Shown here: in pieces, positions 3,490 through 19,586 of the stretch | Layout: the number at the start of each line of letters is the position of its first letter | Numbering within the stretch: position 1 is the first letter of the stretch | DNA from: Siphonodentalium dalli | Lineage: Eukaryota; Mollusca; Scaphopoda; Gadilida; Siphonodentaliidae | Length of the DNA stretch: 64,000 nucleotides | Assembly: GCA_032622095.1 (NCBI GenBank) | Contig: CP136063.1 | Span: 11,947,814-12,011,813, forward strand | Reading direction: 5' to 3' | Position numbers and translations under genes: made by a program | Notes under the pieces: generated by a model | What the model was told of the DNA's origin: nothing | What the model saw: only the letters and a program-made list of their open reading frames with translations | Databases searched by the model: none

Positions 3490-3495
3490 CTCCGG
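3490..3495. repeat. Polinton target site duplication, left copy (CTCCGG)
   Basis: CTCCGG directly precedes the element end AGAAGAATAGATGCC and is repeated at 19581-19586 after the other end. A 6-bp duplication is the known Polinton/Maverick signature. The hexamer belongs to the satellite monomer (ACATCTCCGGGTGATG). Confidence 0.95.
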
Positions 3496-4554
3496 AGAAG
3501 AATAGATGCCTCGTTCGCCTCACATCTAAAAATAGAATTTGTGGGGTCTAAAATTGGTTGTACTAAAATATTCCCAAATTATCAAAAACCCCTAAAAAAA
3601 TTTCAAAACTTCCAAAATTTATTTTTTCCAAAAAATTTCAAAACTTCCAAAAAAGTTCAAAACCCCAAAATTTCAAAAGAAAAAATTTCAAAACCCTCAA
3701 AATTATTTCTCTAAAAAAAAAAGTTTAAATAAAAAATTTATAACGAGTTTTCGGTTTCTGATAATCTCGATATTAAAAAATGTCGAATGTTAAATTATTT
3801 GCGTGTAATATCTTTCGTTATTTTTTTTGTTCAAATATTTTTCATGAAATTATTAATCGATGTTTAGAAATAGCTTTATTGGACATTGTGACCATCGATA
3901 TGAATGCATACATTCCAGTGTTTATCGGACGCAGTTCATATAATTGTCATACCTGAAAATAGACACCATTACTTTTACATAAATAATAAAGAGCGTTTAT
4001 TCTTTACACTCTCTATCCCATATGACAGGTGTGTATTATCGTGAATTATTGGAAGTATTGAGATGTACTATGTTGAATCACTAACGGTCGAAAATTGTAA
4101 TGTGAAATTACAACCCTCCAGAATGAATTGTCATATTCGCTGTAGACGCAATCACACACGCGACATTGGTGGTAACAATGTGTCTTTCACACTTTGCTTT
4201 ACCAAATGAATTATATTATTTCCCCGTTCACAGTTATATGCTATTCAGAAAACATATCGATTTAATGTCTGAACAAACGGGTTAGTATCAATTAAAGTTG
4301 ATAAACTGTGTCATTCACACGATAATTAGTTATCCAAAACATGCATACGACCAGGTCACTCAATTATAGACATTGCTTCGGTGTCATTGTTATAACAACA
4401 TTACGTAATAACCACTTATCACTCCAGTCACACTTACGATCATATACCGAAACTACAGGTAGCACCGATGATGTAACATTATATCACTGCTATTGTACCA
4501 ATGATAGGTTCAGACATGTTCGATGTTTAGAAAATACATAATGTGCAGGTGTTC
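3496..4554 (+). repeat. Polinton left terminal inverted repeat
   Basis: About 1,059 bp matching the reverse complement of 18509-19580 with few differences. It includes an A/C-rich tract (about 3565-3720) of repeated TTCAAAA/CCAAAA, a copy of AATAAAGAGCGTT (3985-3997), and ends at ATGTGCAGGTGTTC. Small open frames inside are mirrored in the other TIR and are not supported as genes. Confidence 0.93.
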
Positions 4555-4817
4555 ACTTGACAAGAGATTTTGTACACTCAATCACAGACCAACGTGATAA
4601 TACCAGCCCACACCCAACCCCCAACATCCACCAAACACCTTCACATCACTTACCAAAACCAATGATGTTATAAGAACTGTAGGTTATTTATATAATATTA
4701 TAGCTTGCAGTGTCATCCTGGTAATTCATTTACAACAGCCATAACAAATGTTTACTTATGATGTATATAAGAACTGTATAGCTACTAATAAATAGGACAC
4801 AGTGAACACAAAAAAAA
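4555..4817 (+). promoter_or_regulatory. Leader and promoter region of the rightward gene block
   Basis: AT-rich leader between TIR and ATPase. TATATAAG at 4764-4771 lies about 50 bp before the ATG at 4818, and a similar TTATATAATATTATAG stretch lies near 4689-4705. GAACTGTA follows both TATA-like stretches or their surroundings (about 4673 and 4771). The A-rich run directly before the ATG is an ordinary eukaryotic or viral start context. Promoter function is inferred from position and motif. Confidence 0.5.
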
Positions 4818-5483
4818 ATGGGTCCAATTAACCATAGCTCCATACCATTTGAACCTTGTTCTAGTATTTGCATCACCGGACCAACTGGTTCTGGCAAGAC
4901 GAGATGGGTCTACAGATTCCTGCAAAATCTTAATGGAATGTATTCTAGAGATCCCCCTAAGAAAATAATGTACTGTTACGGTATTTATCAAAATTTCTAT
5001 GATGAAATTGAATCATCAATCGAAAATTTGGTCATGCATCAAGGATTACCTACCCAAACAGAAATCGAAGAATTTGCTGACGGTAAACATAATATGTTAA
5101 TATTAGACGACTTGATGCATCGCATTATTGACCAAAAAGAGATTGAAACACTATTTACGCAGCAAACTCATCATCGCTGTCTTTCGGTGCTGTTTATTTC
5201 ACAAAATTTATACGCACAAGGCAAGGCTGCGAGAACTATAGCCTTAAACACAGGATATCTAATTTTATTCAAAAATTTGAGGGATGGATCACAAATTTCC
5301 ACATTGGGTAGACAATTGTATCCCGGTAAATCTAAAGTACTCATTGAGGCATACAAGGATTGTATGAAGAAACCATTTGCGTATCTTATAATAGATATGT
5401 CCCCTCACACTGAGGATAAATACAGGCTACGAACAGACGTGTTTCCCAACCAAGACCCTATAATTTACGTACCTACTACGTAA
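4818..5483 (+). CDS. ATP: A32/FtsK-HerA-type genome packaging ATPase
   Basis: A 221-residue protein with a P-loop GPTGSGKT (residues 21-28), a Walker B strand MLILDD (93-98) and a polar sensor strand SVLFISQN (about 130-137). This is the layout of the packaging ATPases of Polintons, adintoviruses and nucleocytoplasmic large DNA viruses, which pump the genome into the capsid using ATP. The length is normal for the family and the frame is intact. It is the first gene of the rightward block, 41 bp before the next ORF. The ATG at 4818 is the first in frame and follows a TATA-like box. Confidence 0.93.
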   Translation: MGPINHSSIPFEPCSSICITGPTGSGKTRWVYRFLQNLNGMYSRDPPKKIMYCYGIYQNFYDEIESSIENLVMHQGLPTQTEIEEFADGKHNMLILDDLMHRIIDQKEIETLFTQQTHHRCLSVLFISQNLYAQGKAARTIALNTGYLILFKNLRDGSQISTLGRQLYPGKSKVLIEAYKDCMKKPFAYLIIDMSPHTEDKYRLRTDVFPNQDPIIYVPTT

Positions 5484-5524
5484 TAAGAAGGGGACAGTAT
5501 CGGAGCTGAGTCGCGACGATAAAA

Positions 5525-5848
5525 ATGAGTCGATTATTACGTAATGAGTTGAATTTTGTCAGACTATTGACATCAACCCAATCAAGATCTCAACGAAACG
5601 CATTATTGACATCGATAACTAATAATCAGTTGAAAGTTCTGGTTGAAATTACGATCAATTTACTACATGAAATTTTAACAGTTACAGTTCAACAAAAAGC
5701 TAAATTACGGCGATATAAATCATTTTATATATTCTTGGGTGATAAATCTGTGAGCTTGTTGAGGAAAAGAAAAAGTGTGAATAATCACTCAACCGCCATT
5801 GCTTTGATGTTGAACATCGTTGAACCTAAATTGAAACAGTTTTTGTGA
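5525..5848 (+). CDS. Small basic Polinton protein, core-protein-like
   Basis: 107 residues. The pattern, a helical N-terminus (SQRNALLTSITNNQLKVLVE) then a Lys/Arg-rich segment (KAKLRRYKSFYIFLGDKSV, then LLRKRK), matches a small protein that recurs beside the ATPase in invertebrate Polintons and adintovirus-like elements. Those are often compared with adenoviral core proteins. The usual glycine-rich hydrophobic tail is not seen. The stop TGA (5846-5848) overlaps the ATG of the next gene by one base. A DNA-condensing virion role is plausible but unproven. Confidence 0.65.
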   Translation: MSRLLRNELNFVRLLTSTQSRSQRNALLTSITNNQLKVLVEITINLLHEILTVTVQQKAKLRRYKSFYIFLGDKSVSLLRKRKSVNNHSTAIALMLNIVEPKLKQFL

Positions 5849-6216
5849 TGGAGTCTGTGAAGAAAACTGTTTTGATCCCGTATGAAAGATATATGAGGTA
5901 CACTGAAAAAAGTGAACACAAAAAAGTTTCATCGGAGTCTAACATTGAGCACAGCGACATCTCGGCAAACAATAGTAGCCATTCCGATGAAATGGATAAA
6001 GAAATGGACCCGATGAATAATCAGATTGTTAATACAGTTCAAACGACTGAACCTCAGGATGCAATCCAAAAATCAGAAGTTAACACATCGAAAAAGACAC
6101 ATACTAAGCAAAGAAAAAAGAAAATAAGAGGGGTTAAGCGTGAAATATCTAGACCTCCGGGTATAATCGCCGGTAAGCTGACCAAGATAAAGAAGAAACG
6201 TTGGCTATCACTGTGA
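5848..6216 (+). CDS. Lys-rich Polinton protein of unknown function
   Basis: 122 residues from the ATG at 5848, which shares its A with the preceding TGA; a GTG start three bases earlier is unlikely. The N-terminus (VLIPYERYMRY) resembles the short conserved start of a family often found at this place in Polintons. A polar Ser/Glu/Asn-rich middle follows, then a strongly basic tail (KQRKKKIRGVKREISR, ending KIKKKRWLSL) that suggests nucleic-acid contact. It ends 5 bp before the likely integrase ATG at 6222. Function not known. Confidence 0.6.
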   Translation: MESVKKTVLIPYERYMRYTEKSEHKKVSSESNIEHSDISANNSSHSDEMDKEMDPMNNQIVNTVQTTEPQDAIQKSEVNTSKKTHTKQRKKKIRGVKREISRPPGIIAGKLTKIKKKRWLSL

Positions 6217-6221
6217 ACAAT

Positions 6222-7331
6222 ATGGCCGAGTGGAAAGATTATTTGAGTTCAATTTATTTTAATCCGGGTCACCCCGCATCGTACTCAGGAGCTACAAAGT
6301 TGCATCAGACTGTAAAATCTGAAAATAAGCACAACATTTCCAAGCGCGAGATTGTGGCGTGGCTACAAAATCATGAAAGTTATTCCCTGACAAAAAGTGT
6401 TAGACGAAAATTCCCGAGGTCTCGTGTTATTGTAAACGCTTCTGACAGTCAATGGGATGGAGACCTCATGGATATGAATGATGTTTCCAAAGACAACGAC
6501 AATTACACCTACGTGTTAGTAATGATTGACATTTTTTCTAGGAAGTTATAGTGTGAAGCTATAAAGAGGAAAACTGCAATTAATGTGATCAATGCTATGA
6601 AACATATATTTGAAGGTGGAAGAACCCCTCGCATCCTCCGAACGGATCGCGGTTCGGAGTTCACAAACAAACGGGTCAAAAGTTACCTTAAGGGTCTTCA
6701 TATATCTCAAATTTTTACGCAAAACGAAATGAAAGCCAATTATTCTGAACGGGTCATAAAAACTATAAAGCAGAAGATTTCACGTTATATGATAAAGCAT
6801 AATAATGCTAGATATATCGACATTCTACAAGATATTGTGAAAAGTTATAACCATACAATACATCGTTCGTTAGGCACCACCCCTGACTCCATAACTGTTG
6901 AGAATGAAGATGAGTCTCGTCTCGATCAGTGGTTAATAAGACAGAAGGGAGGTGTTAAAAGTAAATTGAAGAAAAAGTTCAAATACAATGTAAATGATAT
7001 CGTTAGAATATCACACACCAAAGCAGTTTTTGACCGAGAATATTCTCAGAAATGGACTGGAGAGTTGTTCAAAGTGACTAAGAGGTTTTACAGGCAGAAC
7101 ATACCCTTGTATACATTGACAGATTTCTTGGATGAAAACATTGAGGGCGCTTTCTACGAGTCAGAACTTCAAGGGGTGCGCGTTGATGACGAAACAGTTT
7201 ACAGAATAGATAAAATTGTCAAAAAGAGGAAACGAAAGGGTCAAACTGAAGTCCTGGTGCACTGGCATTCATGGCCTGACAAATTTAATTCATGGATTTT
7301 AGAGTCTGATGTCGACAGATATCAAAATTAA
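6222..7331 (+). pseudogene. INT: Retroviral-type (DDE) integrase with C-terminal chromodomain, one in-frame stop
   Basis: From the ATG at 6222 the frame runs to a TAG at 6549-6551 (codon 110) and continues without frame change to 7331. The N-terminal part contains the first catalytic aspartate (residue 81, in WDGDLMDM) and the strand VLVMIDIFSR. After the stop come the second aspartate (RTDRGSEF) and the glutamate (YSERVIKTIK). The C-terminal ~50 residues form a chromodomain-like module (ETVYRIDKIVKKRK, VLVHWHSWPDKFNSWILE), known in Polinton integrases and thought to read histone marks. The enzyme inserts the element and makes the 6-bp duplication. The stop separates catalytic residues, so this copy should be inactive unless the stop is read through. 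An alternative TTG start at 6201 overlaps the upstream gene and is less likely. Confidence 0.92.
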
Positions 7332-7426
7332 TAAGAGCAAGCTATCCGAGGGGAAACCATTACAATCATGAATAATAGAACAGATACCTTGACGAATATG
7401 TTTAAACAGAACGCGGTCGTCTACAT

Positions 7427-7807
7427 ATGAATCTCCTTAAATGGATAGGAATTACTATTATGGTAATAACTCTGTCACTACCGGTTATATTAGTTCCAAA
7501 GAAGATACCACGTCAGACGGTGGACTATGAATTACGTCATACGAATGAGTCACGCCCCCATGATTACGAACAACACCCCTGTGGGTTCGTGAAAAAGTGG
7601 ACAATACGATCAAACATTACCGTTACATTATGTAATAATCAAGGGCGCATTTATACACGCATTAGGCGAGTTGTGAATAACACTCCCGCGATTATAAGTA
7701 TTCCGTATAACCAGTGGTCTGCCTTCAAGTATATATTCAGTGATGTTGATAAAACTATAAGAGAAGAGATGAACATTGATTCTCTTTTGAAACAAAATAG
7801 AAACTAG
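7427..7807 (+). CDS. PC4-like domain protein with hydrophobic N-terminus
   Basis: 126 residues. Residues about 4-24 (LKWIGITIMVITLSLPVIL) look like a signal anchor. Residues about 57-115 resemble the C-terminal domain of transcriptional coactivator PC4/p15: strands around NITVTLCNNQGRIYTRIRR followed by a helix YNQWSAFKYIFSDVDKTIRE. The W-S-x-x-K-x-x-x-S-D-x-D pattern is the PC4 helix. PC4 binds single-stranded DNA and melted promoters. A membrane-anchored version would be odd, so either the hydrophobic segment has another purpose or the PC4 likeness only reflects the fold. It sits 95 bp after the integrase and 4 bp before the next gene. Confidence 0.5.
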   Translation: MNLLKWIGITIMVITLSLPVILVPKKIPRQTVDYELRHTNESRPHDYEQHPCGFVKKWTIRSNITVTLCNNQGRIYTRIRRVVNNTPAIISIPYNQWSAFKYIFSDVDKTIREEMNIDSLLKQNRN

Positions 7808-7811
7808 TCAT

Positions 7812-8249
7812 ATGGATAATTATTATCTGTACCTGACTAGCGACGATTCCATAGATAAATATCCAGATAATCGTCCTCTCGACTTCACAATAGAGTTACC
7901 TGGTGTATTAATATTGGAAGGAGCGTGGTTATGTTGTTTGAAAGACATAAACATAACTGACCATATAGACACGGATTTATTATATATTTGTTCGGACATA
8001 TGTGGAGAATCAATAGCCTGCGACACATCATCCCCCATCCTCCGGGTTATAAAGAGAGAGACACGTGATACGGGTCATTGGCGGAGTTTTGAGGACTCAT
8101 TCTACATAAACGTAAGACAGGGTAAACTTCAGCGTCTCAGGATTTTTATAAGAGGCGATAAACTTTCTAAAATAAATGCAGAAAAAAGAGTGACCTGTAC
8201 ACTACATCTGAAGAAACATGTCGATCACGTATATTCCAACCGATATTGA
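7812..8249 (+). CDS. Conserved Polinton protein, possible minor virion component
   Basis: 145 residues. The start (MDNYYLYLTSDDSIDKYPDN, then FTIELPGVLILEGAWLCCL) follows a pattern common in invertebrate Polintons: M-D-x-F/Y-Y-L-x-L, a Pro-x-Asn-x-P turn, then strands around L-x-G-x-W. It looks mostly beta, as expected for a virion protein. It lies just before the capsid gene, consistent with a structural role, but I cannot assign it to the penton. Its last 32 bases overlap the next gene. Confidence 0.6.
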   Translation: MDNYYLYLTSDDSIDKYPDNRPLDFTIELPGVLILEGAWLCCLKDINITDHIDTDLLYICSDICGESIACDTSSPILRVIKRETRDTGHWRSFEDSFYINVRQGKLQRLRIFIRGDKLSKINAEKRVTCTLHLKKHVDHVYSNRY

Positions 8250-8478
8250 AAAGTGGAGAAAACATTTCAGGGACATGATTAATGGGAAGTTAACGCCAGA
8301 TAATGAGGGTCGCTACTTTATTGACAAAACTCAAAATAGCGATAGTGAAGAAGAAGACGTTCTAAAACCGCATATTACCGTAGTGACACCCATAGCGCAA
8401 GCGATTGAAATGGCCAAAGCCGAAGTTGCAGAAAATAAGTTGACACAAGCACGTAAGGCGTCCAAAAAAAAACAATAA
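8218..8478 (+). CDS. Small conserved Polinton protein
   Basis: 86 residues, starting inside the previous gene in another frame (ATG 8218). The pattern YIPTDIEKWRKHF...GRYFIDK...VVTPIAQAIEMAKAE, ending in a Lys-rich tail, is one I recognise from the same position in other invertebrate Polintons. There is an acidic stretch (DSEEED) in the middle and a predicted helix at the end. No function is known. The overlap suggests compact virus-like packing. Confidence 0.6.
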   Translation: MSITYIPTDIEKWRKHFRDMINGKLTPDNEGRYFIDKTQNSDSEEEDVLKPHITVVTPIAQAIEMAKAEVAENKLTQARKASKKKQ

Positions 8479-8544
8479 GAGGGTGTTACCTAACGATTTG
8501 GCTCATAACCCTAAGAAAGTGAAAACCACCTTTTTCGATAAACC

Positions 8545-9807
8545 ATGAATGAATACAGAGAGTACCATACCTCTAAATTGGCATTATTTGAATCGCCCGC
8601 GGTTGACAGCGGAATACAAGCGACAGAATGGATAAACTACAGACCCGTGAATCAGCTGACAGACACTGCAGCTTTAGAGTTCAATATTCCCGCCATGGCC
8701 ACAACCTACATGGACCTCAAACGGACATTGCTACTTCTCAAACTCAAAATAACCAAGCAAGATGGTTCGGCTCTAACCGTTAATGACGATGTGGGTCTGA
8801 TAAATGCACCCCTACATTCAATATTTTCGCAGGTCGATTTGAATATACAGCAAGTTCCCGTGAGTCAAGTCGGGCCGAATTATCCATACAAAGCATATTT
8901 CGATGTACTCTTAGAAACTGAACGTAAGGAACAGCTACATGGACAAGCGTTCGAAAAGGACACGGCAGGTGGTATGGACCTGGCAGATTCGAAAAGCGGG
9001 AACTCTGGCCTGTATTACAGGTCCAAAACAACCCGTACTAGTCAAATAATGGATATTATGGGATCAATTCAGCTTGACTTCTTCCAACAGGACAAATAAC
9101 TACTAAATGGTCTCCCGCTCACGTTAAAATTCTGGCAGACGAGAGATGTTTTTAGACTGATGTATGCGGGAACCACTGAGACATACAAGTTGAAAATACA
9201 GGAAGCTAATTTGAGACTAGCCACTGTGAAAGTTAACCCCGGAGTATTACTCAGTCATACTGAGTCACTCAAGAAAAAGAACGCGTGTTATCCTTTTTCA
9301 AAATCTATCATAAAGACGTATACAGTGTCAAAAGGTGCATTCAGTTTGGGAGAAGATAATCTATTTCAAGGAAACGTACCCAGTAGCTGTATTATTGGCT
9401 TAGTATCATCAAAGGCTGAAAGCGGTTCACGCGATAAGAACCCGTTCAACTTTGCGACTTTTGGATGCAACTTCGTCGGATTTTACGTCAACGGGCAGTC
9501 TATGCCCGCCCAAGCACTCCAACCGAACTTTACCAGTAAGGAATATGTAGAAGCTTACAATACGATAATAAAAGATGCGAAACGAAAAGCCGTTCATATT
9601 ACTTATGAGGATTATGCGAAAGGTTATTGCATATATCGGATAAACCCGCAAGGAATTAATCACGACAGGGTCATACCGCACAAAGGTCACACACGCCTCG
9701 AGATTAAATTCTCATCGGCTTTGAAAGACAATTGTACTTTAATTGTTTACGCAAAATTTCCTGCCTTTCTCAAAGTTGACGAGAGTCGTAAAGTTTGCAT
9801 TGAATAA
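8545..9807 (+). pseudogene. Capsid protein of the F54H12.2-like family (probable double jelly-roll MCP), one in-frame stop
   Basis: The frame opens at 8545, meets TAA at 9097-9099 (codon 185), and continues in the same frame to the stop at 9805-9807, about 420 codons. The sequence (SKLALFESPAVDSGIQ, LINAPLHSIFSQVDLNIQQ, YPYKAYFDVLLETE, and in the second part RDVFRLMYAG) matches the protein often annotated as F54H12.2-like, which is encoded by Polintons. It is likely their major capsid protein; length and beta-rich character suit a double jelly roll. That structural call is inference. The internal stop falls at the junction of the two halves. The last base of the stop overlaps the protease ATG. 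Confidence 0.85.
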
Positions 9808-10253
9808 TGAATACACGCGGACTCATGAGGGCGATAAATAGTTTCACAAACCATAATGAGATAGATGTTTGTCCCATAGACAAATTACCTCTTTATATCC
9901 AATATCCCCGGATGTATATAGTTAACACAGACGAGAGTAGCCAACCTGGATGCCACTGGATATTGATGACATTCCAGGAACATAACGCATCAGAGTTCTT
10001 CGACCCTATGGGATTAAAACCCGAGTGTTACAACGGACGATTTAAACACGTGTTGTTATTGAATGGACCTCGTTACGAGTGCAATGCTTACAGATTACAG
10101 GGTTCTAATATATGTGGTCCCTATTGCATATACTTTGCATTCTATAAACTGTGCGGATACAGTCTAGAAAATATAATGAGACGTTTCAGTGCCAATAATT
10201 ATATGTATAATGATTTAATTATTAAGGATTTTATGTTGAAATATATTCTGTAA
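9807..10253 (+). CDS. PRO: Adenovirus-type (adenain/Ulp1-like) cysteine protease
   Basis: 148 residues. The catalytic set is visible in adenain order: His50 (GCHWILM), Asp66 (EFFDPMG), Gln98 and Cys103 (LQGSNICGPYC). These proteases cut virion precursor proteins during maturation. The ATG overlaps the capsid gene stop (TAATG). It is the last rightward gene; AACGCTCTT follows immediately and a poly(A) signal AATAAA lies at 10310-10315. Confidence 0.93.
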   Translation: MNTRGLMRAINSFTNHNEIDVCPIDKLPLYIQYPRMYIVNTDESSQPGCHWILMTFQEHNASEFFDPMGLKPECYNGRFKHVLLLNGPRYECNAYRLQGSNICGPYCIYFAFYKLCGYSLENIMRRFSANNYMYNDLIIKDFMLKYIL

Positions 10254-10369
10254 ACGCTCTTCATTAGCGACAACGAGAGAAACACTCTTTAAATTATATT
10301 ATGTATATAAATAAAATATTGTAAATACAATCATTTATCGTTCTTATATTATCATATGTATGACTGGGA

Positions 10370-10403
<34 letters not shown>

Positions 10404-10600
10404 GACTGGGTTGAGAGGGTGGGGGTGGGGGTGGGGGGGGGGGTCTGTGGAGAGAGTCCGGTGAGGTGGTATTAGGTCTGTTGCCAAAACAAACAAAAAA
10501 ATCTATTGTTTTTGTTTGTTTTGTCAAAAGCCAAAAAAACAAAGGTATGTGAGGCCCTCCCCCCGAATGAAAAAAATAGATAATCGATACATATATATAT
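10254..10600. other. Convergent intergenic region with AT microsatellite and G-rich tract
   Basis: It separates the 3' ends of the two gene blocks. It holds AACGCTCTT (10253-10261), a + strand AATAAA (10310-10315), a (TA)n run near 10373-10397, a G-rich run near 10417-10443, and an inverted pair CAAAACAAACAAAAAAA / TTTTTGTTTGTTTTG around 10487-10525 able to form a hairpin. A 116-codon minus frame here is low complexity and is not supported. It probably serves as a bidirectional 3' end region. Confidence 0.6.
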
Positions 10601-11125
10601 TTATTCTGAAAGTAATTCAAGTTCACATATGGTAGGATATACAATATTTAACATCTGCTTTTCAGTTTTAATGCCCGTAATCACAATTTTTCCATTATGA
10701 AAGCATGTAAAATGTATTTTCTCACGTCTGAACATTGCCGCAGGGAACAGCTCTAATTCGTAAGAACATTCCATAAGTTTCACTAAAACGTTTAAGTCAA
10801 GTTTTCCATTTAACTGACAAAATGCAGACATTGTCAAAATTTTTATGGAATTTAATCTCACTCGCCAACCACATTTTTGAATATGTCGAGCGTACCGACG
10901 CAATCGAACTCGTGTCTGTTTGACACTATCAGAACGCCCGTTAACAACGATTTTACCCGTGTTAAACACGAGGCAACATCCACCGAATTTAGAATGTTTC
11001 CATACAACTCCGCTAAACTTTTTGGAATTGTATTCAATGTTCGAACAGCCGAGTGTCAAATCCCTTAGATTAATAGAACAGTTCAAATCTGAAGAAGATA
11101 CGACATTAGTTATTCGTAGCATCAT
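10601..11125 (-). CDS. TATA-binding protein (TBP) homologue
   Basis: 174 residues, the size of a TBP core. Two repeats are clear: residues about 3-88 (ITNVVSSSDLNCSINL, SNIEYNSKKFSGVVWK, VFNTGKIVVNG, RYARHIQKCGW) and about 91-174 (YELELFPAAMFRR, CFHNGKIVITG, IYP-like VYPTI). The four phenylalanines that kink DNA in TBP have counterparts at Phe37, Phe54, Phe127 and Phe142. Asn7 matches the minor-groove Asn of repeat 1; its repeat-2 partner appears to be Thr98. There is no long N-terminal tail. The protein would bind TATA-like promoters and recruit polymerase II factors. It begins 11 bp after the PC4-like gene on the same strand, and its stop overlaps an AATAAA signal (GAATAAATA). Fold and family are secure from sequence; the viral role is inferred. 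Confidence 0.88.
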   Translation of the reverse strand: MMLRITNVVSSSDLNCSINLRDLTLGCSNIEYNSKKFSGVVWKHSKFGGCCLVFNTGKIVVNGRSDSVKQTRVRLRRYARHIQKCGWRVRLNSIKILTMSAFCQLNGKLDLNVLVKLMECSYELELFPAAMFRREKIHFTCFHNGKIVITGIKTEKQMLNIVYPTICELELLSE

Positions 11126-11136
11126 AGGAGTAATGT

Positions 11137-11748
11137 TTAGATCAATGTCTGCATCCGGTTAATCAAACATGTTCTATCGCCGTTGGGGCAGCATTCCATA
11201 CATCTTAAAGATCCTTCCTGGTTTTGGTGATCGTCGGTCAAATAGCACTGCACAGTCTGATCAATTTCAGGAATATTAGCACACAGGACGAATATAGCTC
11301 CAACTAGTTCTTCAAATTGGTCGAATGTCAGAGATATTCCGTATTTGGTTGCACACAAATCATCTGAATGTTCAGGCAGCCAATACCTGCGAATGTCAAC
11401 ACGCGGGATGCCGCTCTTTATCGTAATGAAGAAATTCCCTCCGATATGACGTCTCATGAATACATCGTCTTCACCGGTACGATAACTGACCACTTCTTGA
11501 TGTATATCTGCTAAGTAAGATTTCAACTCTTTGAATCTCCTTAGATTTAATGTTATTCCAGATTTTGTCGGAAATTTTTGGCCCGCAGAACTTTCACCGC
11601 ACTCTCGTATGTGTATATACAGATTTCCCAGGAATCGGCCGTCAAATAGGAAAATGTCATTTCCTAACGGGGCTAAGCATTGTGGATGGAACGCCCTCTC
11701 GTTGGTTTCAGTCCGTTGGTTTCCTTCAACATCGGGTTGATCAGTCAT
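11137..11748 (-). CDS. Double PC4/p15-like transcription coactivator domain protein
   Basis: 203 residues. Domain 1 (about 30-83): NDIFLFDGRFLGNLYIHIRE, then SGITLNLRRFKELKSYLADI. Domain 2 (about 96-166): GGNFFITIKSGIPRVDIRRYW, then KYGISLTFDQFEELV and IPEID. Each has the four-strand-plus-helix plan of PC4, including V-D-I-R-x-Y-W and K-x-G-I-S-L. The C-terminus is Cys-rich (RCMECCPNGDRTC) and might bind a metal. PC4 binds single-stranded and melted promoter DNA and helps polymerase II initiation; in cells it acts as a dimer, which a tandem double domain could mimic in one chain. It is transcribed with the TBP gene just downstream, which suggests a joint role. Confidence 0.8.
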   Translation of the reverse strand: MTDQPDVEGNQRTETNERAFHPQCLAPLGNDIFLFDGRFLGNLYIHIRECGESSAGQKFPTKSGITLNLRRFKELKSYLADIHQEVVSYRTGEDDVFMRRHIGGNFFITIKSGIPRVDIRRYWLPEHSDDLCATKYGISLTFDQFEELVGAIFVLCANIPEIDQTVQCYLTDDHQNQEGSLRCMECCPNGDRTCLINRMQTLI

Positions 11749-12078
11749 TGTTTTTTATTTTGAACCTGGAAAATAAGAAAACAAAACATTACTTATCAGT
11801 TACACATCGAGAATACAAAAGTCCGAAAGGAGTCCTCTCATGCGTTTGGTGGATGTTGGGTGTGGAGGGAGGCCCGCCCCCGCCCGCCCCGCCCGCCCTG
11901 GGGAGGGGAGGCCCGCCCGCCCGCCCTGGGGGTCCGCCCGCCCGCTCGCCCTGGGGGTCCCCGTCCCGCCCGCCCTGGGGGAGGGGGAGGCCCGCCCCGC
12001 CCGCCCCCGCCCTGGGGAGGCCCGCCCCCTCGCATACTCAATAAGAATAAGAAAATTGAGTCATTGAGTCAGTTCATT
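11749..12078. promoter_or_regulatory. Divergent intergenic region with very GC-rich array
   Basis: Between the minus-strand PC4-like gene and the + F-box-like gene lies a tract at about 11866-12031 built of GCCCGCCCGCCCTGGGG-like units, extremely GC-rich inside a strongly AT-rich element. Long open frames on both strands here are low-complexity Pro/Arg/Gly artefacts. Its place suggests a shared promoter or a G-quadruplex/CpG-type control region; this is inference. Confidence 0.5.
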
Positions 12079-12639
12079 ATGGAGAGAATACTACCCGCAG
12101 AAATACTGGAGAAAATATACAATCAGCTAATTGAAATGTCAACTATAAATCCAGAAATAAAAAAACAACTACTACACAATTGGTTTATAAGAGAAATTAA
12201 AATAATACTGAAGAATATAGATGAAGGATATTTTCCTGTACAACGATTGAAATCTTTGATTGCTAGGTCTGAATTTCAAACTGATTTCTTACAGGATATA
12301 TTGAATCAAATGTATTCAAATCGCTGGGTATTTAGAGGCGTTCCTAAAAACAAAATACATGACATTCGTGAACTTATTGGAGATAACTTTGTGAGATTTG
12401 CAGAATACCGAGACTGGGTTTTCAATCAGAGAAGTTTTGAAGAAGTGACAATAATTCACGGATATATCATTCTCCGTGAACCGTGTACACTGTTCACGAT
12501 TGAACAAATACTTAACAGCGGCGTGATTTTGGATTACATTTCTACAAGTAAATCGAAATATATTTCAGAATTAGAGAATGAATTAATCTGGTCATTCGGA
12601 ATAATCTGGAATTATGGTGACTCTTCGTTGAGAAAATAA
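12079..12639 (+). CDS. F-box-like hypothetical protein
   Basis: 186 residues from the ATG at 12079. The open frame extends further upstream only through the GC-rich array, so I prefer this start. The N-terminus ILPAEILEKIYNQL fits the start of an F-box (L-P-x-E-I-L-x-x-I-x-x-x-L), the motif that docks Skp1 in ubiquitin ligases. The rest is rich in Ile, Asn, Glu and Lys, mostly helical, with no motif I recognise. AATAAA signals lie at 12635-12640 and 12642-12647. It is on the opposite strand to its neighbours, so it may be an acquired accessory gene. A host-interaction role is possible; the F-box call is weak to moderate. Confidence 0.5.
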   Translation: MERILPAEILEKIYNQLIEMSTINPEIKKQLLHNWFIREIKIILKNIDEGYFPVQRLKSLIARSEFQTDFLQDILNQMYSNRWVFRGVPKNKIHDIRELIGDNFVRFAEYRDWVFNQRSFEEVTIIHGYIILREPCTLFTIEQILNSGVILDYISTSKSKYISELENELIWSFGIIWNYGDSSLRK

Positions 12640-13032
12640 AAAATAAAAACATAGTTGTTTTTGGTTTAAGTATAAACCAAAATGAGATTGTACTGGAGGT
12701 AAACATGTAATGATAGAAAAAAAAAAACTAATTCATAACTAACCTGTATAGAATATTTCACACGCACAGTATAGGACTAACGAATTTCTAATTGTGAACT
12801 GGATCGGGTAGCATTTTATAGATCGAAAAAATGGACACCTTGGATAAATTGACCAATGACTGCCATACGTTTATAGTAATACGTGTTCATGCACGCTCGA
12901 TGTTATCTAACATCGAACGTGTTTGAACAAGTCTTAGTATAATCCGATAACTACCATCGATCGAATGTTTACACTCTCATTACAACCTTGATCAAATATA
13001 GACGATTAAATTATATATATTACGTACCTCGT
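12640..13032. other. Convergent spacer between F-box-like gene and polymerase 3' end
   Basis: AT-rich, no gene. It contains a short hairpin GATGTTATCTAACATC (12898-12913) followed by AACATCGAACGTGTTTGAAC, which closely resembles AACATCGAACTTGTCTGAAC near the inner edge of the right TIR (about 18547-18566). Confidence 0.5.
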
Positions 13033-16000
13033 TCAATATCCATATGGCAGTGTATCCATGTTATCCAATCTGTTATCTGCGTTTGGTATAAACAACTCGG
13101 TACTGTTTGTCCTCAGATCTGTTATATATTTTCTTTTTCCTTTCGATCTGCATATTTTCCTTGGATTGGTTGTGGTGATGGGCACTGTGCTTCCAGATTC
13201 TAACAGCTCTTTAATCGTCTGGAAATTGATGAACTGTGAATTTTCAAAGTTCAAAGAGAACCCCCGAACTTTACACGTCTCTTTAGCTTTATTTGTTCGA
13301 TAAGCGTAATTCTTGGGGCCTCCAGAAACAAATTCTTCGATGTATTCATCAGGATCTAGCCCGCTGGTCAGTTGTCCCAAATAGTCGCCCAGTGGGGGAT
13401 TAATTTGATCCTCAGTGCTGCTAAATACACAACTATCCGTGTCGTAATATAATACTCTTCTGTCCAAGGAATGAATAACTTCATATAGCATTAATCGAGC
13501 GTGACACGTCGTGAATGTGGCCAAATATATGTTATTCGCAGCTCCACAAGGCACACAGTCTTTTCGATAGGTCCACTCCATTTGAAGAATGTCATCAGTT
13601 ATGACATGAAAATTTTCCATTTGTTTCATTGGATTTGAAATGAGTTGGAATAGATTGTCTTGTTCCGATTCATGGAAATACTCGGTCTGTTTGAAATTCT
13701 GGTTTTGGCCTAGCTTCCCCCAAAATGAGTTGAGCATGAGCTTACTGATTTGCCTCAGTCCTGGATTCTTTTCGATGCTTTCTCTGTCCAGTAATATACC
13801 TTCGTTGTCTTTATACGCTGTGATGTATTTATCCATGTCTTCGTTAGATTTTATCCAATCCGGAGGACCGCTAGCCTGCTGCTTGAACTTTAAGAATGTG
13901 TTTATATATTCCGTGAATAATCCATTTTGTTGGCTATAGTCTGACGTTTCGGTCCAATGGTATATTTCATATATTTTGAGAATCTTGTATCCCACTTTGA
14001 CAGCTGTCTCCAGTTCAGGAATACACCAAACACCGGTAATAGCTCTCTGTTGGCACGTACACGTGCAAGGTCGTTGATTTTCATTATCAGCACAAGTCCT
14101 GCACAGTGGAAACTTCAGTTTACCTTCGGATCGATACGGTAATACGGGGTGATAGAGTCCATTAGGTGGTAAAATCTTGACTTGCGCTATTCCGAAGTAA
14201 TCCTTAAGCTCGGTAATGTCATCGCCCAAAATGATTTTCGGGTGTCCAATCGGGTAGCGAGAGTATTTGAGCACACTTGGATACAGCGACGTGAAGTCAA
14301 AATAATGTATTTTCTCACCAACGGCAGTTTTGTAGTGTAATTTAGTTGCATTCGTTCTGCCGCCGAAGAAACTGTCTCTAGGCTCTAGCCGTTCAACAAT
14401 GTCTAAACTAGCAATGAAGTCACGAAGCTCCGGATTAGTCTTTCGGACAGCGACGAACTTGTGTTCCCAAATGCACACATATTTCATGCCTCGACTTTCT
14501 ATAAACTTCTTCTTTTTCTGTGTGAGTCCGTATAATTCATTAGGTGTCTGGTTGGTTATCGGATTCTTGACTACGTCTCTATCGTGACTCAGACAAAGTT
14601 CACATCCATGGAATTGACATCCGTGAAATTCGAATGCCGTGTTTAATTCTTCGCAATAGCCATCCAATCTGTACTTTGCATCATCGAGTTTCTTTTCACG
14701 GCCGTTCAAAGCGTGAGTTATGTGGATTTTATCTTTGAACATCATCCATTCCAGCCATTGAATCGAACTTTTGCTGTATTGATCTTTATATGATGTCTTG
14801 GGGATTCGAGCTATCTGGGATTTGAGAAATTCTTTCTCACGAATTTGTACGCCGCGTTCATCTTCAAGTTTTGTTTGTTGAACCCATTCACCTTTGTATA
14901 AAATAGACAAAGTTCCATCTTTACATTTAGCAGGAAGCCACGTTTTCCCTTCGGTACTTAGACGCACTCTCCATTCCTCGTCGACGAATTTCGTTCTGAA
15001 TATACCCATACATACCGATGCGATTGTAACGTATTGGAATGGATCAACAGCACCAACCAGTTTGAACTTCATATCGCCAGAAAACTCGTCAATTACGGGT
15101 TGTATATTTCCAGTCGCATTCATGATGTGGGTTCTGAATTTTATGCAAGCTTGTCTCAAAATATTGACATCACTACGACAATAATCCGATAATTCTTTCT
15201 TGAAGATGAAAACTGCATTTGTTTGAGCAGCGTGCCATTTCGTGAAGTCTTTTCGTTCAGCCACACTCATATAATCAGCGCCGTAATATTTGGCATCCGG
15301 ATAGGGTCCTTCATAATTCTGGTTGGCTGATTTATTGAAAAAGTGCGGGAACCATCCTTTTTTCTCGCCATCCAGACCGAAAGTTTTCGGTAACAGTGCC
15401 AACTTCATTGGTAGAAAGCTGAGACTGTCCAGTACTTTGATATGAAGATCTTTTTCCACGTATAGTTACATCAATTTGGATCCATTATATATAACTTTGG
15501 GTCTCAATGATTGATCAATGAGATATTCCATGAGAAAATATCCATCGTAACCCTTGAAGTTGTGAGCCAGTGCTATGAATCCCTTGTGTTGTTCCGAGAA
15601 TAACCATTTTCCAAACTTTTCACCGGTATCAGGACCGCTAAATATAACCTCTCGGAGTCCGCATGTATCCGAACATAAATTTTGGTCACTCTTCTTCTTC
15701 TTCTTCTTCGCATCACTGTCGATACACGCATCACATAGATGTCCGCAATTTCTACAGTTCGGTTTCACTTCCAACGATTCATGCATGCATTCGTAGCAAG
15801 CTGTTTGGGCGACGAGGAAGTTCGGTGTATGCTGGACTTTTCCGCACCATGTTTTTAAACAGTTCTGAAAAGTAATAATTGAACGTTTTAACCTCTAGCT
15901 TTATCGATAATAAAAAAAACAAAATAAAACGTCTACACTTTGTTCAGATAATTATTTTTAAAAAAAATGTTTTGGTATAGGTTCAACGTTAATAAAGAGC

Positions 16001-18265
16001 GTTGAAGTATTACTATTGTTCGTTGGTTGATCCTAAAAATTACTCGTTCCAATCTACGTGTCAATATTAAAAATGTATATCATGATCCGACCATCGACAT
16101 ATAGCCTGTATAATTGTCGATTCAAGCATGCAGCTATCAAGTTCAATAAAGTTAAAACAATTATATATTATGTTAGTTTACTATATAACAATTACAAATC
16201 TCTTTTCACAAAAAAATATGTTACACATTTTCAATGTGTCAAGAATTAAAAAAGTTAATTACTCGATTTAACATCTGTGACTCAGTTGAATTTTAATATT
16301 GAGACCCCTTAACTTTGGTCGAATTCAAGTATGTTATTGTTATATGGTAACCGCACACGCGAGGTAACAGCTAAAGAGCGTTCAGCGATAATCTAATATA
16401 ATTTTTAAAAATGCAAGAGCGTCTCTACTTATGCGTGCCTTTAATAAAGAGCGTTACGTTATCATGATTTCGACTGTAGTGTGCTACATATATATATATA
16501 TTACAATTAGGTTAAGACTCACCTGACACTTAGCACATTTCTTGCATATATGATCCTCTTTACAGTCCTGGCAATCCTTTGTATGTAAAGGTGCATATCC
16601 TTCAGAACATTCCAATATATCATGTTGAATGGTTTCGAAGTCGAAGAAACAGAATTTAGCTCTTTCATCATCAGTAACGGGAGGTATGGCCCTTACATAA
16701 CATTCGTGTGCTCCCATTGTGTATTTGTCACACGATCTACAAAATGTTTCTCCGCACACGTGTTGATTCGGACGTCTTTTCCGTCTCTCCATGACTTTTG
16801 TACAGTCCAAGCATTTCCACCATTTTTCGCAAGGAGCTGTCGTTTCTTTCGAAGCTTGATTAATAGGTTTTGCTTTATGACGCACGAAACATTGATGAGA
16901 CATACACGTCATATTACAATCTGAACAATGTTCTTTGTTTTCACTTTGTTCACATTTATCACTTTTACACACGAAACAGGTGTGTTCACAATAATGCTTT
17001 CCTTTGTTTGAATAATGTTTTAAACAATGCACACAGAAATATTGTGCGCTAAAGAATCCCGTTATGGATTGTATAGCGTGGAAATTTTCATTAGCAGTGA
17101 GATATAAATATATCACGGGTCTTTCTATACCGTCTGTAGGCGCGCTGGTAATGCATTTATTACCCAGTCTAGCACTGACGACTAGTATTGTCAAATTCAG
17201 AGTTTCCTCGAATGCTTTCAGATCTGCTAAACTGGATGGTCTGTCTGTTGATACACCTGCGATGACACTAATTGCTTTGGCTAATTTTCCTTGTTCGGTA
17301 CGTTTTTTGGTCCTCATTTGGTTGTAATAACTGATCGGTACTTTTCTGTATTCCATGATGAGTTGTAAATTATTTCTGGTTCCTCTATTCTGTGTTATTT
17401 CCAGCCATTCATCAGGACTGCGAATATTTAATTTACACCAACATGTGGCGATAGCCCGAGCCATACACATATTGTCGGTATTTTCAATCGTAACGATCGA
17501 TGTTTTATTTCTTAGATTGTCACTTTCATCATGTAAAGCCGTTATCCTCCTCCGTGCTCCGCCTTTAGGTAACTCGATGGTGCCTATATCTATGCGGAAA
17601 CTTTGATTAACAGTCAGTGTTTGGTTGCTGTTCAAAACGAGTTCGATTCTGTCAATCACAGTGTTAGCATTTAACGTTTGCAACGTTTGTAACGGAACTA
17701 CTATAGGGTTGTCCAAACTCTCATGGTGAATGATAACTCTGCCAAGATCATTGTCAGCCAAATTTCCACGAGCTCTTTGAATAGTGTCCTCGAACATTGA
17801 ATGTAGATTCCTGTATATGTCGATTAACTTTTTCTCTTTGTAAATTTCATCTAATTTGATCTCATATGTTCTCTGTGTTGCCAAATTGTTTCCGAAGGTT
17901 CGTTCACTCCTTTTGCGAATGCTATATCCGGTTATTTGAATATCAGAACTGTCGGCTGTTTGATTGTCTGATTTTACGGCTTCATCTTGATGAGGTGTCT
18001 GTTCGTCTTCTCGGTTTTGTAATCCTGATGGTCCAGCTGTACCGGGTTGTGAGTTGTTAACATCATTTTTAGGCGCATCATGTTCTCCGTATCCGATTTG
18101 GTTCGGCCATGGGTCATCTCCTGAACAAAGCGTAGATGCTTCAATAATATCTTCATCTAGTTGATAAGCTACGATAGCCTTGTCGTATTCTTCGATGTCT
18201 TGCAGAATACATTCTATTTCATAAATTTCCTCCACTGTCAGAGGTGTCATTATTTCTTCAGCCAT
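13033..18265 (-). pseudogene. POLB: Protein-primed family B DNA polymerase, two exons, one in-frame stop
   Basis: Exon 1 runs 18265-16523 (581 codons), exon 2 runs 15864-13033. Exon 1 has a polar N-terminus, then a Cys/His-rich region (FVCKSDKCEQ, CSDCNMTCMSHQC) and exonuclease motif I (FDFET, residues 541-545). Exon 2 has Exo II (AHNFKGYD), Exo III (YCRSDVNIL), polymerase motif A (DFTSLYPS), motif B (KLMLNSFWGKLG), motif C (YYDTDS) and KNYAYR. All catalytic residues are present. A TAA at 15466-15468 (codon 133 of exon 2) lies between Exo II and Exo III; the frame resumes unchanged. The enzyme would copy the element from a protein primer at the TIR ends, with proofreading. The ATG at 18265 is about 70 bp below a TATA-like box. 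A GTG-started ORF from 15459 is only the tail of this gene. Confidence 0.93.
15865..16522 (-). other. Spliceosomal intron in the polymerase gene
   Basis: 658 bp. On the minus strand the donor reads CAG|GTGAGT (first intron base 16522) and the acceptor TTACTTTTCAG|AAC (last intron base 15865). Both cuts fall between codons (phase 0), and joining them keeps the Cys-rich zinc-binding pattern, with several Cys-x2-Cys pairs on both sides. Without splicing, exon 1 runs into a stop after 12 intron codons. The intron is AT-rich and contains three copies of the AAAGAGCGTT motif. Confidence 0.85.
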
Positions 18266-18508
18266 TTTTCGAGAAGTCCTGAGTAGTGATTACAGCGGCG
18301 TATATTCACTATATGGAATACAGCTTAGTAATCTATATTTTTATACCATAAAATCCCGAACATATGCAAGCACGGATGACGTAACATTATATAAGATTAT
18401 ATATATGAACGTAATGTATGAATAGGCCGATAATTGGTTTTGTACGGACGAGGCAACATTAGTTGTTTAACTGGTTATTATTACGTAACCCTGTGTTCCC
18501 CCCGCTGA
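18266..18508 (-). other. Leftward-block promoter region between polymerase gene and right TIR
   Basis: AT-rich, with no gene. It holds the TATA-like box at 18333-18345 and a second TA-rich stretch near 18390-18408. It borders the TIR at the sequence CCCCCCGCTGAGAACACC. Confidence 0.5.
18333..18345 (-). promoter_or_regulatory. TATA-like box upstream of polymerase gene
   Basis: On the minus strand TATAAAAATATAG lies 68-80 bp before the polymerase ATG, a normal distance for a TATA box and short leader. It is the best TATA match in the leftward promoter region, and a candidate target of the element's own TBP. Confidence 0.5.
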
Positions 18509-19580
18509 GAACACCTGCACATTTAACAATTGTTATTATCTATTTCTAAACATCGAACTTGTCTGAACCTGTCATTGGTACAATAGCAGTGATATAATGT
18601 TACATCATCGGTGCTACCTGTAGTTTCGGTATATGATCGTAAGTGTGACTGGAGTGATAAGTGGTTATTACGTAATGTTGTTATAACAATGTCATCAAAG
18701 CAATGTCTATAATTGAGTGACCTGGATGTATGCATGTTTTGGATAACTAATTATCGTGTGAATGACACAGTTTATCAACCTTAATTGATACTAACCCGTT
18801 TGTTCAGACATTAAATCGATATGTTTTCTGAATAGCATATAACTGTGAACGGGGAAATAATATAATTCATTTGGTAAAGCAAAGTGTGAAAGACACATTG
18901 TTACCACCAATGTCGCGTGTGTGATTGCGTGTACAGCGAATATGACAATTCATTCTGGAGGGTTGTAATTTCACATTACAATTTTCGACCGTTAGTGATT
19001 CAACATAGTACATCTCAATACTTCCAATAATTCACGATAATACACACCTGTCATATGGGATAGAGAGTGTAAAGAATAAACGCTCTTTATTATTTATGTA
19101 AAAGTAATGGTGTCTATTTTCAGGTATGACAATTATATGAACTGCGTCCGATTAACACTGGAATGTATGCATTCATATCGATGGTCACAATGTCCAATAA
19201 AGCTATTTCTAAACATCGATTAATAATTTCATGAAAAATATTTGAACAAAAAAAATAACGAAAGATATTACACGCAAATAATTTAACATTCGACATTTTT
19301 TAATATCGAGATTATCAGAAACCGAAAACTCGTTATAAATTTTTTATTTAAACTTTTTTTTTTAGAGAAATAATTTTGAGGGTTTTGAAATTTTTTCTTT
19401 TGAAATTTTGGGGTTTTGAACTTTTTTGGAAGTTTTGAAATTTTTTGGAAAAAATAAATTTTGGAAGTTTTGAAATTTTTTTTTGGGTTTTTGATATTTT
19501 GGGAATATTTTAGTACAACCAATTTTAGACCCCACAAATTCTATTTTTAGATGTGAGGCGAACGAGGCATCTATTCTTCT
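18509..19580 (-). repeat. Polinton right terminal inverted repeat
   Basis: About 1,072 bp, inverted match to 3496-4554. It ends GGCATCTATTCTTCT at 19580. It differs from the left copy by a few substitutions and a small insertion near 18523-18545 (AACAATTGTTATTATC). It carries the mirrored AACGCTCTTTATT at 19079-19091. Confidence 0.93.
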
Positions 19581-19586
19581 CTCCGG
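19581..19586. repeat. Polinton target site duplication, right copy (CTCCGG)
   Basis: Direct repeat of 3490-3495 immediately outside the right TIR, continuing as GTGATGATTATTGACG, which is the rest of the interrupted satellite monomer. Confidence 0.95.

Follow-up and report, generated by a model that had tools for sequence, protein, structure and literature searches.

A 64,000-nt stretch of the Siphonodentalium dalli genome (the window, i.e. the whole stretch of DNA that was analysed) contains an open reading frame that appeared to encode a TATA-binding protein (TBP) and to lie inside a Polinton, a virus-like transposon. This locus raises the question of whether such an element carries its own TBP and, if so, whether it could recruit or redirect host RNA polymerase II (Pol II) in its own way. 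Mirusviruses and giant viruses already provide examples of a TBP gene borne by a DNA virus (PMC10132985 and PMC11464507), and such genes occur sporadically in elements of an alga that the authors assigned to mirusviruses (PMC10675990). Megavirus encodes much of its own transcription machinery (PMC11464507). In contrast, Polintons/Mavericks and adintoviruses have no TBP or PC4 gene reported in the literature searched. No published report of a Polinton TBP was found, although earlier core Polinton papers could still mention one, and the available portions of PMC11071296, PMC8905726, PMC10294476, PMC12220804, PMC7786948 and PMC11071308 do not mention it. The original prediction likewise noted TBP genes in some giant DNA viruses and knew of no described Polinton TBP.

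A TBP gene inside a Polinton

The original prediction, made from the sequence, assigned both TBP repeats and all four DNA-kinking phenylalanines to the 174-aa minus-strand protein. In agreement, a Pfam profile search matched two stretches of the protein to the TBP repeat (PF00352, E=1.4e-30), alignment placed Phe at 4/4 kinking positions, and the AlphaFold model (pLDDT 93.6) formed a two-repeat saddle resembling human TBP (TM 0.91). The best viral TBP model was less similar (TM 0.80, 21% identity; structure comparison only). The prediction also placed the gene in a Polinton bounded by terminal inverted repeats (TIRs) and a target-site duplication; both were found, with 1,038-nt TIRs and CTCCGG on either side. 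It is therefore near certain that the 174-aa ORF encodes a true TBP belonging to the Polinton (Table 1).

Table 1. Features of the Polinton in the window, numbered from the first nucleotide of the window
Feature	Position	Strand	Basis or remark
Target-site duplication CTCCGG, left	3490..3495	.	Direct reading of sequence
Polinton, lineage 1, 16,085 bp	3496..19580	.	TIRs, 6-bp duplication, AG start, gene set
Left TIR, 1,038 nt	3496..4533	+	99% complementary to 18543-19580
TATATAAGAA box	4764..4773	+	54 nt upstream of ATPase ATG
Packaging-type ATPase, frame open	4818..5483	+	Weak P-loop and Pox_A32 matches, all below Pfam cut-offs
WATAAGARS box	5482..5490	+	43 nt upstream of ORF 5525; overlaps upstream stop codon
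rve integrase with C-terminal chromodomain; frame interrupted here by an in-frame stop	6177..7331	+	Pieces searched separately
WATAAGARS box	7330..7338	+	97 nt upstream of ORF 7427; overlaps upstream stop codon
WATAAGARS box	8474..8482	+	71 nt upstream of capsid ATG; overlaps upstream stop codon
Major capsid protein gene; this copy interrupted by in-frame stop	8545..9807	+	Likeness to lineage-2 capsid
Adenovirus-type cysteine protease	9807..10253	+	Pfam Peptidase_C5 1.6e-4, 21.9 bits vs cut-off 21.3
TBP gene, 174 aa	10601..11125	-	Pfam 1.4e-30; AF2 model and PDB comparison
PC4-like coactivator gene, 203 aa	11137..11748	-	Pfam PC4 ~5e-14, two stretches
Protein-primed type DNA polymerase B (PolB) region, in pieces here	13033..18265	-	DNA_pol_B_2 4.5e-46 on 13036-15465
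TATAAA	18340..18345	-	80 nt upstream of first ATG of PolB region
Right TIR	18543..19580	-	Pairs with left TIR
Target-site duplication CTCCGG, right	19581..19586	.	Direct reading of sequence

The element has the marks of a Polinton/Maverick: long TIRs, an AG start, a 6-bp duplication, PolB and an rve integrase. With Polintons/Mavericks and adintoviruses it further shares an integrase chromodomain and a capsid protein of predicted double jelly-roll type; the candidate adenovirus-type protease scores just above its Pfam cut-off, and every match of the candidate packaging ATPase is below cut-off. The window integrase pieces gave Pfam matches to rve (0.0069 and 6.5e-6) and Chromo (4.9e-8). The capsid protein had no Pfam match but is 36-38% identical to that of another Polinton lineage of this genome (lineage 2, below), which was modelled as a double jelly roll. 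Adintoviridae are defined by a PolB with an OTU-like domain, an integrase with a chromodomain and a BLAST-recognisable hexon (PMC11071296, available part). The window element has the integrase chromodomain, and its PolB N-terminal pieces had no Pfam match; the stretches concerned (15469-15894 and 16487-18289) were assigned to PolB by position. The PC4-like gene shares the strand of TBP, whose start codon follows shortly after its end. The giant viruses named above carry genes for much of their own transcription apparatus; by comparison, none of the ORFs of the window Polinton was seen to encode an RNA polymerase. Stop-codon reassignment was considered for the interrupted genes and rejected, since the internal stops are of more than one kind and the capsid stop is absent in 19/19 other copies.

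Three other sequence features were observed. A 24-nt sequence with TGATGTAA or TGACGTAA, which we take to be CRE/ATF-like, is found in both TIRs and upstream of PolB (4461-4484, 18369-18392 and 18592-18615). GC-rich minisatellite-like repeats lie between the PC4 gene and a plus-strand ORF (11867-12042), and are also present in another insertion (L018). To the left of the Polinton, nested inverted repeats of 55-91 nt (1099-1701) resemble a palindromic small element.

Copies, lineages and ancestry

The genome (2.23 Gb, 9 contigs) was searched for further copies. Of 453 first-look TBP candidates, 150 were scored; all 150 were full length and 95-100% identical, and 148 had no stop, giving at least 150 copies. 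The PC4 gene was similarly preserved (97-100% identity, 145/150 without a stop, with 150 of 649 candidates scored). MCP-PRO-TBP-PC4-PolB kept one order and orientation in 20/20 sampled insertions (8 kb each), a sample in which the L015 stretch begins within MCP and split genes occur for PRO in L021 and L024 and for MCP in L027. A few copies have stops, one of them in the L017 TBP. The TBP-PC4 cassette was also seen in tandem, twice in L015 (1395-5408) and three times, ∼2.77 kb apart, on C2 (G000:C2:85770832-85777514).

In one sampled copy of the window Polinton (L018/L030), a second Polinton from a different lineage is nested at the equivalent of window position 8036, and the nested element has its own TBP, 39% identical. 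A search with this nested TBP (150 of 431 candidates scored) gave identity clusters of ∼90-100, 60-64, 51-57 and 40-45%, with some fragments between, and the window family then fell at 40-41%. We read one insertion each from the second and third bands and two from the fourth (L043, L044, L045 and L046). In 4/4, the TBP gene immediately precedes that of the integrase, and in 3/3 readable cases among lineages 2-5 it overlaps the integrase start. All four lineage 2-5 proteins tested matched Pfam TBP in two stretches each (5e-15 to 2e-18), and the lineage-2 integrase matched rve (1.9e-11). The Polinton context of TBP was thus established for five lineages of this genome. The original prediction had proposed looking for the gene at the same position in other Polintons; its position is the same within the window family and not in the other lineages, where TBP is upstream of the integrase. 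None of the outcomes named as refuting the original prediction appeared: the protein has a TBP-profile match, the fold is the two-repeat saddle, and the gene goes well beyond a single captured insertion.

The lineage-2 TBP is part of an inverted repeat 2.5 kb or more in length, with 2/2 copy pairs tested 99.6 and 99.9% identical (L033/L034 and L039/L040); judged by position, the integrase frame is also inside. Because TBP sits in this repeat, a complete lineage-2 insertion would hold two TBP copies. No clear AG start was seen at the left end of the lineage-2 insert. Lineage-5 Polintons have an IAP-like gene (L045:3960-4625, minus strand; L046:516-1181, plus strand) with BIR (8.6e-16) and RING (2.6e-12) matches, which likely encodes an anti-apoptosis protein.

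A search with P0001 returned 14 relatives, and a database profile search gave 459 proteins at E<=1e-5, 120 of them among the matches listed; relatives among these listed matches are 163-218 aa long. Some relatives (P0006, P0014, P0061, P0088 and P0118) are on database contigs of 7-20 kb. Also among the matches listed are two Mercenaria mercenaria proteins annotated as host genes, one of them named TBP-like 1, and three relatives in metagenome-assembled genomes (MAGs) of Thiodiazotropha or Sedimenticola, the latter probably contamination from an animal host (P0021, P0043, P0064, P0077 and P0099 for Mercenaria and MAG relatives together). Pattern-based scans, which do not prove absence, found no relatives in IMG/VR or in bacterial or archaeal genomes.

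A tree of 47 rows was built from 34 family members (the window protein, four lineages and 29 database representatives), six TBPL1, four TBP and an outgroup of three archaeal TBPs. The family formed one clade (100/100) on a long stem (1.65), separate from TBPL1 (100/100) and TBP (97/90). A tree with metazoan TBP and TBPL1 was among the checks that the original prediction had proposed, and among these cellular and archaeal sequences the family stands apart. An origin from TBPL1 gained no support, as the two clades are separate at 100/100 each. TBPL1 (TRF2) resembles the family proteins in length and in an N-terminal ITNVVC motif, but has Trp at F116 and His at F190 (yeast numbering) and keeps N159, the opposite of the family's pattern.

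The sequences also record selection on the protein. For six pairs among lineages 2-5, pS was 0.74-0.85 and pN only 0.22-0.39; with pN low against near-saturated pS, the TBP protein has therefore long been kept, and the comparison indicates that the Polinton TBP family is under long-term constraint. Within the window family, dN/dS was 0.58 for TBP (15 distinct sequences) compared with 0.24 (PC4) and 0.19 (second capsid piece), values that are noisy within a burst, so that the between-lineage comparison is the main argument for selection. Constraint on TBP is weak in this family because the copies are so recent. Among 27 window-family copies, singleton variants comprised 12 nonsynonymous, 9 synonymous and 1 stop, and shared variants 5 nonsynonymous and 1 synonymous.

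The DNA-reading surface and upstream boxes

Residues were counted over 122 family rows at the positions with DNA-reading roles in yeast TBP (yeast numbering), where the polar base contacts are N69, T124, N159 and T215. The kinking phenylalanines are largely kept (F99 in 117, F116 in 122, F190 in 120 and F207 in 107), as are N69 (120/122) and T215 (116/122). In contrast to cellular TBP, N159 is replaced in every row (Thr in 119, Ser in 3), which upholds the predicted change of the repeat-2 minor-groove Asn to Thr98 of the window protein. T124 is likewise replaced (Asn 94, Gln 23, Ser 4, Phe 1), V161 has become Ser (117) or Thr (5), and the L205 position is Cys, Ser or Thr in 115/122. The window TBP itself keeps N69 and T215 and has T124 and N159 replaced. 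It is a variant and still a member of the TBP family, because its fold and profile matches are those of a TBP.

The resemblance to cellular TBP, the TFIID core subunit, thus lies in the saddle, the four kinking Phe of the window protein and the YExELFP stirrup, and the differences lie in the replaced contacts, an identity of 30-34%, a separate clade and a transposon location. The TFIIB-facing stirrup is mostly retained (Y185 in 115, E186 in 107, E188 in 116 and L189 in 101 of 122 rows). Lineages 2-5 (n=4) are more remodelled: F99 is absent, L114 is replaced by Trp and F116 by Tyr, the F207 position has His or Tyr, and E186 is present in 1/4, while N69, T159, S161, F190, E188 and T215 are kept in all, leaving F190 as the sole kinking Phe. 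Because F99, F116, F207 and E186 are changed there, DNA bending and TFIIB contact may differ in these lineages.

Upstream of the genes of lineages 2-5, two box classes were noticed by eye, TTATAAGG and, before TBP genes, TATAAAA; in the 19,544 nt that include these same upstream sequences, TTATAAGG occurs 12 times in gene sense and 0 times antisense (shuffle mean 0.55). A hold-out of 7,102 nt retrieved later (L047 and L048 only, which adjoin L043 and L044 within the insertions already read) gave 4 sense and 0 antisense matches (mean 0.17; 0/300 shuffles reached 4). A third fetched stretch (L049) had no element genes and no TTATAAGG, and is outside this count. Some TTATAAGG matches fall within conserved ATPase and mCP codons.

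The boxes are also ordered by gene and position. In lineages 2-5, TATAAA stands at -36 to -44 before TBP genes (4/4) and TATAAGG at -35/-36 before ATPase genes (3/3). TATAAGG also stands at -38 in 1/3 MCP, at -41 in 1/2 membrane-protein genes and at -36 in the IAP-like gene. Neither box was found within 110 nt of 10/24 gene starts (including 2/3 MCP, 3/4 mCP and 2/3 INT), two starts have TATAAGG only at -7, and two have TATAAA off position. TATAA[AG] begins at -46..-33 in 10/24 gene starts, compared with 0-1 in equal-width intervals farther upstream, in a scan that left out the stretch nearest the ATG, where two TATAAGG (-7) and one TATAAA (-15) occur. A 6-mer scan without a preset motif ranked ATAAGG at -42..-29 first (7/24 genes).

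The window lineage differs, with no TATAAGG against 2.15 expected. Here, WATAAGARS occurs 7 times in sense and 0 times antisense in 4534-10253 (shuffle mean 0.45) and once in the 44.4-kb right flank. The WATAAGAR boxes range in distance from -43 to -97, several of them run into the stop codon of the frame upstream, and the TBP, PC4 and PRO genes of this lineage have no box upstream. Taken from sequence, the box pattern indirectly favours a redirection of transcription, most clearly outside the window's lineage.

Possible roles of the element TBP

We consider it evenly balanced whether the element TBP, working with host TFIIB and Pol II, recognises a variant TATA box and thereby switches on later Polinton genes. 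In such a mechanism, host TBP would read canonical TATAAA to give early products, TBP itself in lineages 2-5 and PolB in the window lineage. The element TBP would then bind the variant box, which is TATAAGG in lineages 2-5 and similar to WATAAGAR in the window lineage, bend it as TBP does and recruit host TFIIB and Pol II, turning on the ATPase genes together with a subset of the capsid, membrane and IAP-like genes. In the window lineage, the adjoining PC4-like protein would probably help, as a coactivator or single-strand binder. The wider proposal, that animal Polintons have their own early/late switch in which host TBP acts at TATAAA and a remodelled element TBP at a private box (TATAAGG, or ATAAGAG in the window lineage) with host TFIIB and Pol II, is put forward tentatively, its likelihood falling just short of even.

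A simpler role is that the element TBP has an ordinary or slightly shifted TATA preference and raises TBP supply, or acts when host TBP runs short, no promoter class being private to the element. The kept fold and kinking Phe would suit this, as would canonical TATAAA before the TBP genes of lineages 2-5, but we find it unlikely given that polar and hydrophobic base-contact positions are replaced family-wide and that lineages 2-5 have a second, position-fixed box class. Somewhat less likely again is interference with the host, where the element TBP sits on the TATA boxes of the host or sequesters TFIIB, TFIIA or TAFs, damping host or antiviral transcription, and host TBP reads the variant boxes. 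Host manipulation by these Polintons is plausible because one lineage has an IAP-like gene, and most database members keep the stirrup residues; however, the changed base contacts would weaken competition for ordinary TATA boxes, and the box classes are sorted by gene.

It is improbable that TBP guides the integrase to open promoter DNA or aids chromatinisation of the virion genome. The placement of TBP in four lineages, directly upstream of the integrase and overlapping its start wherever readable, would suit such a role, but the window-lineage TBP adjoins PC4, away from the integrase, and the integrases already have a chromodomain. Finally, the idea that a host TBP or TBPL1 was recently retrocopied and travels along as a passenger, or was captured once as the original prediction had allowed, has next to no chance of being correct: the gene is intronless and one Mercenaria relative is annotated TBP-like 1, but this origin is rejected given at least 150 full-length copies, the five lineages, the constraint among lineages 2-5, the deep separate clade, and the host TBP exon, which over 62 residues matches human TBP at 90% identity compared with 32-34% for the listed element copies.

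These proteins are a new TBP clade within a known class of element, with a putative private promoter code open to testing. We know of no account of the timing of Polinton gene expression in the animal nucleus, and a self-encoded TBP, kept across lineages with near-saturated synonymous sites, makes this timing approachable through a small protein, a pair of short boxes and a straightforward binding assay. The annotation of a family member as host TBP-like 1, in at least one Mercenaria gene, can mislead studies of TBP paralogues. TBPs of altered specificity are known mainly as engineered yeast mutants; if preference has changed here, the Polinton protein would be a natural one, and small virus-like transposons would join giant viruses and mirusviruses as bearers of TBP genes. 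If the early/late switch is true, these Polintons would be virus-like transposons whose promoter code is their own and is dictated by a general transcription factor that they encode themselves.
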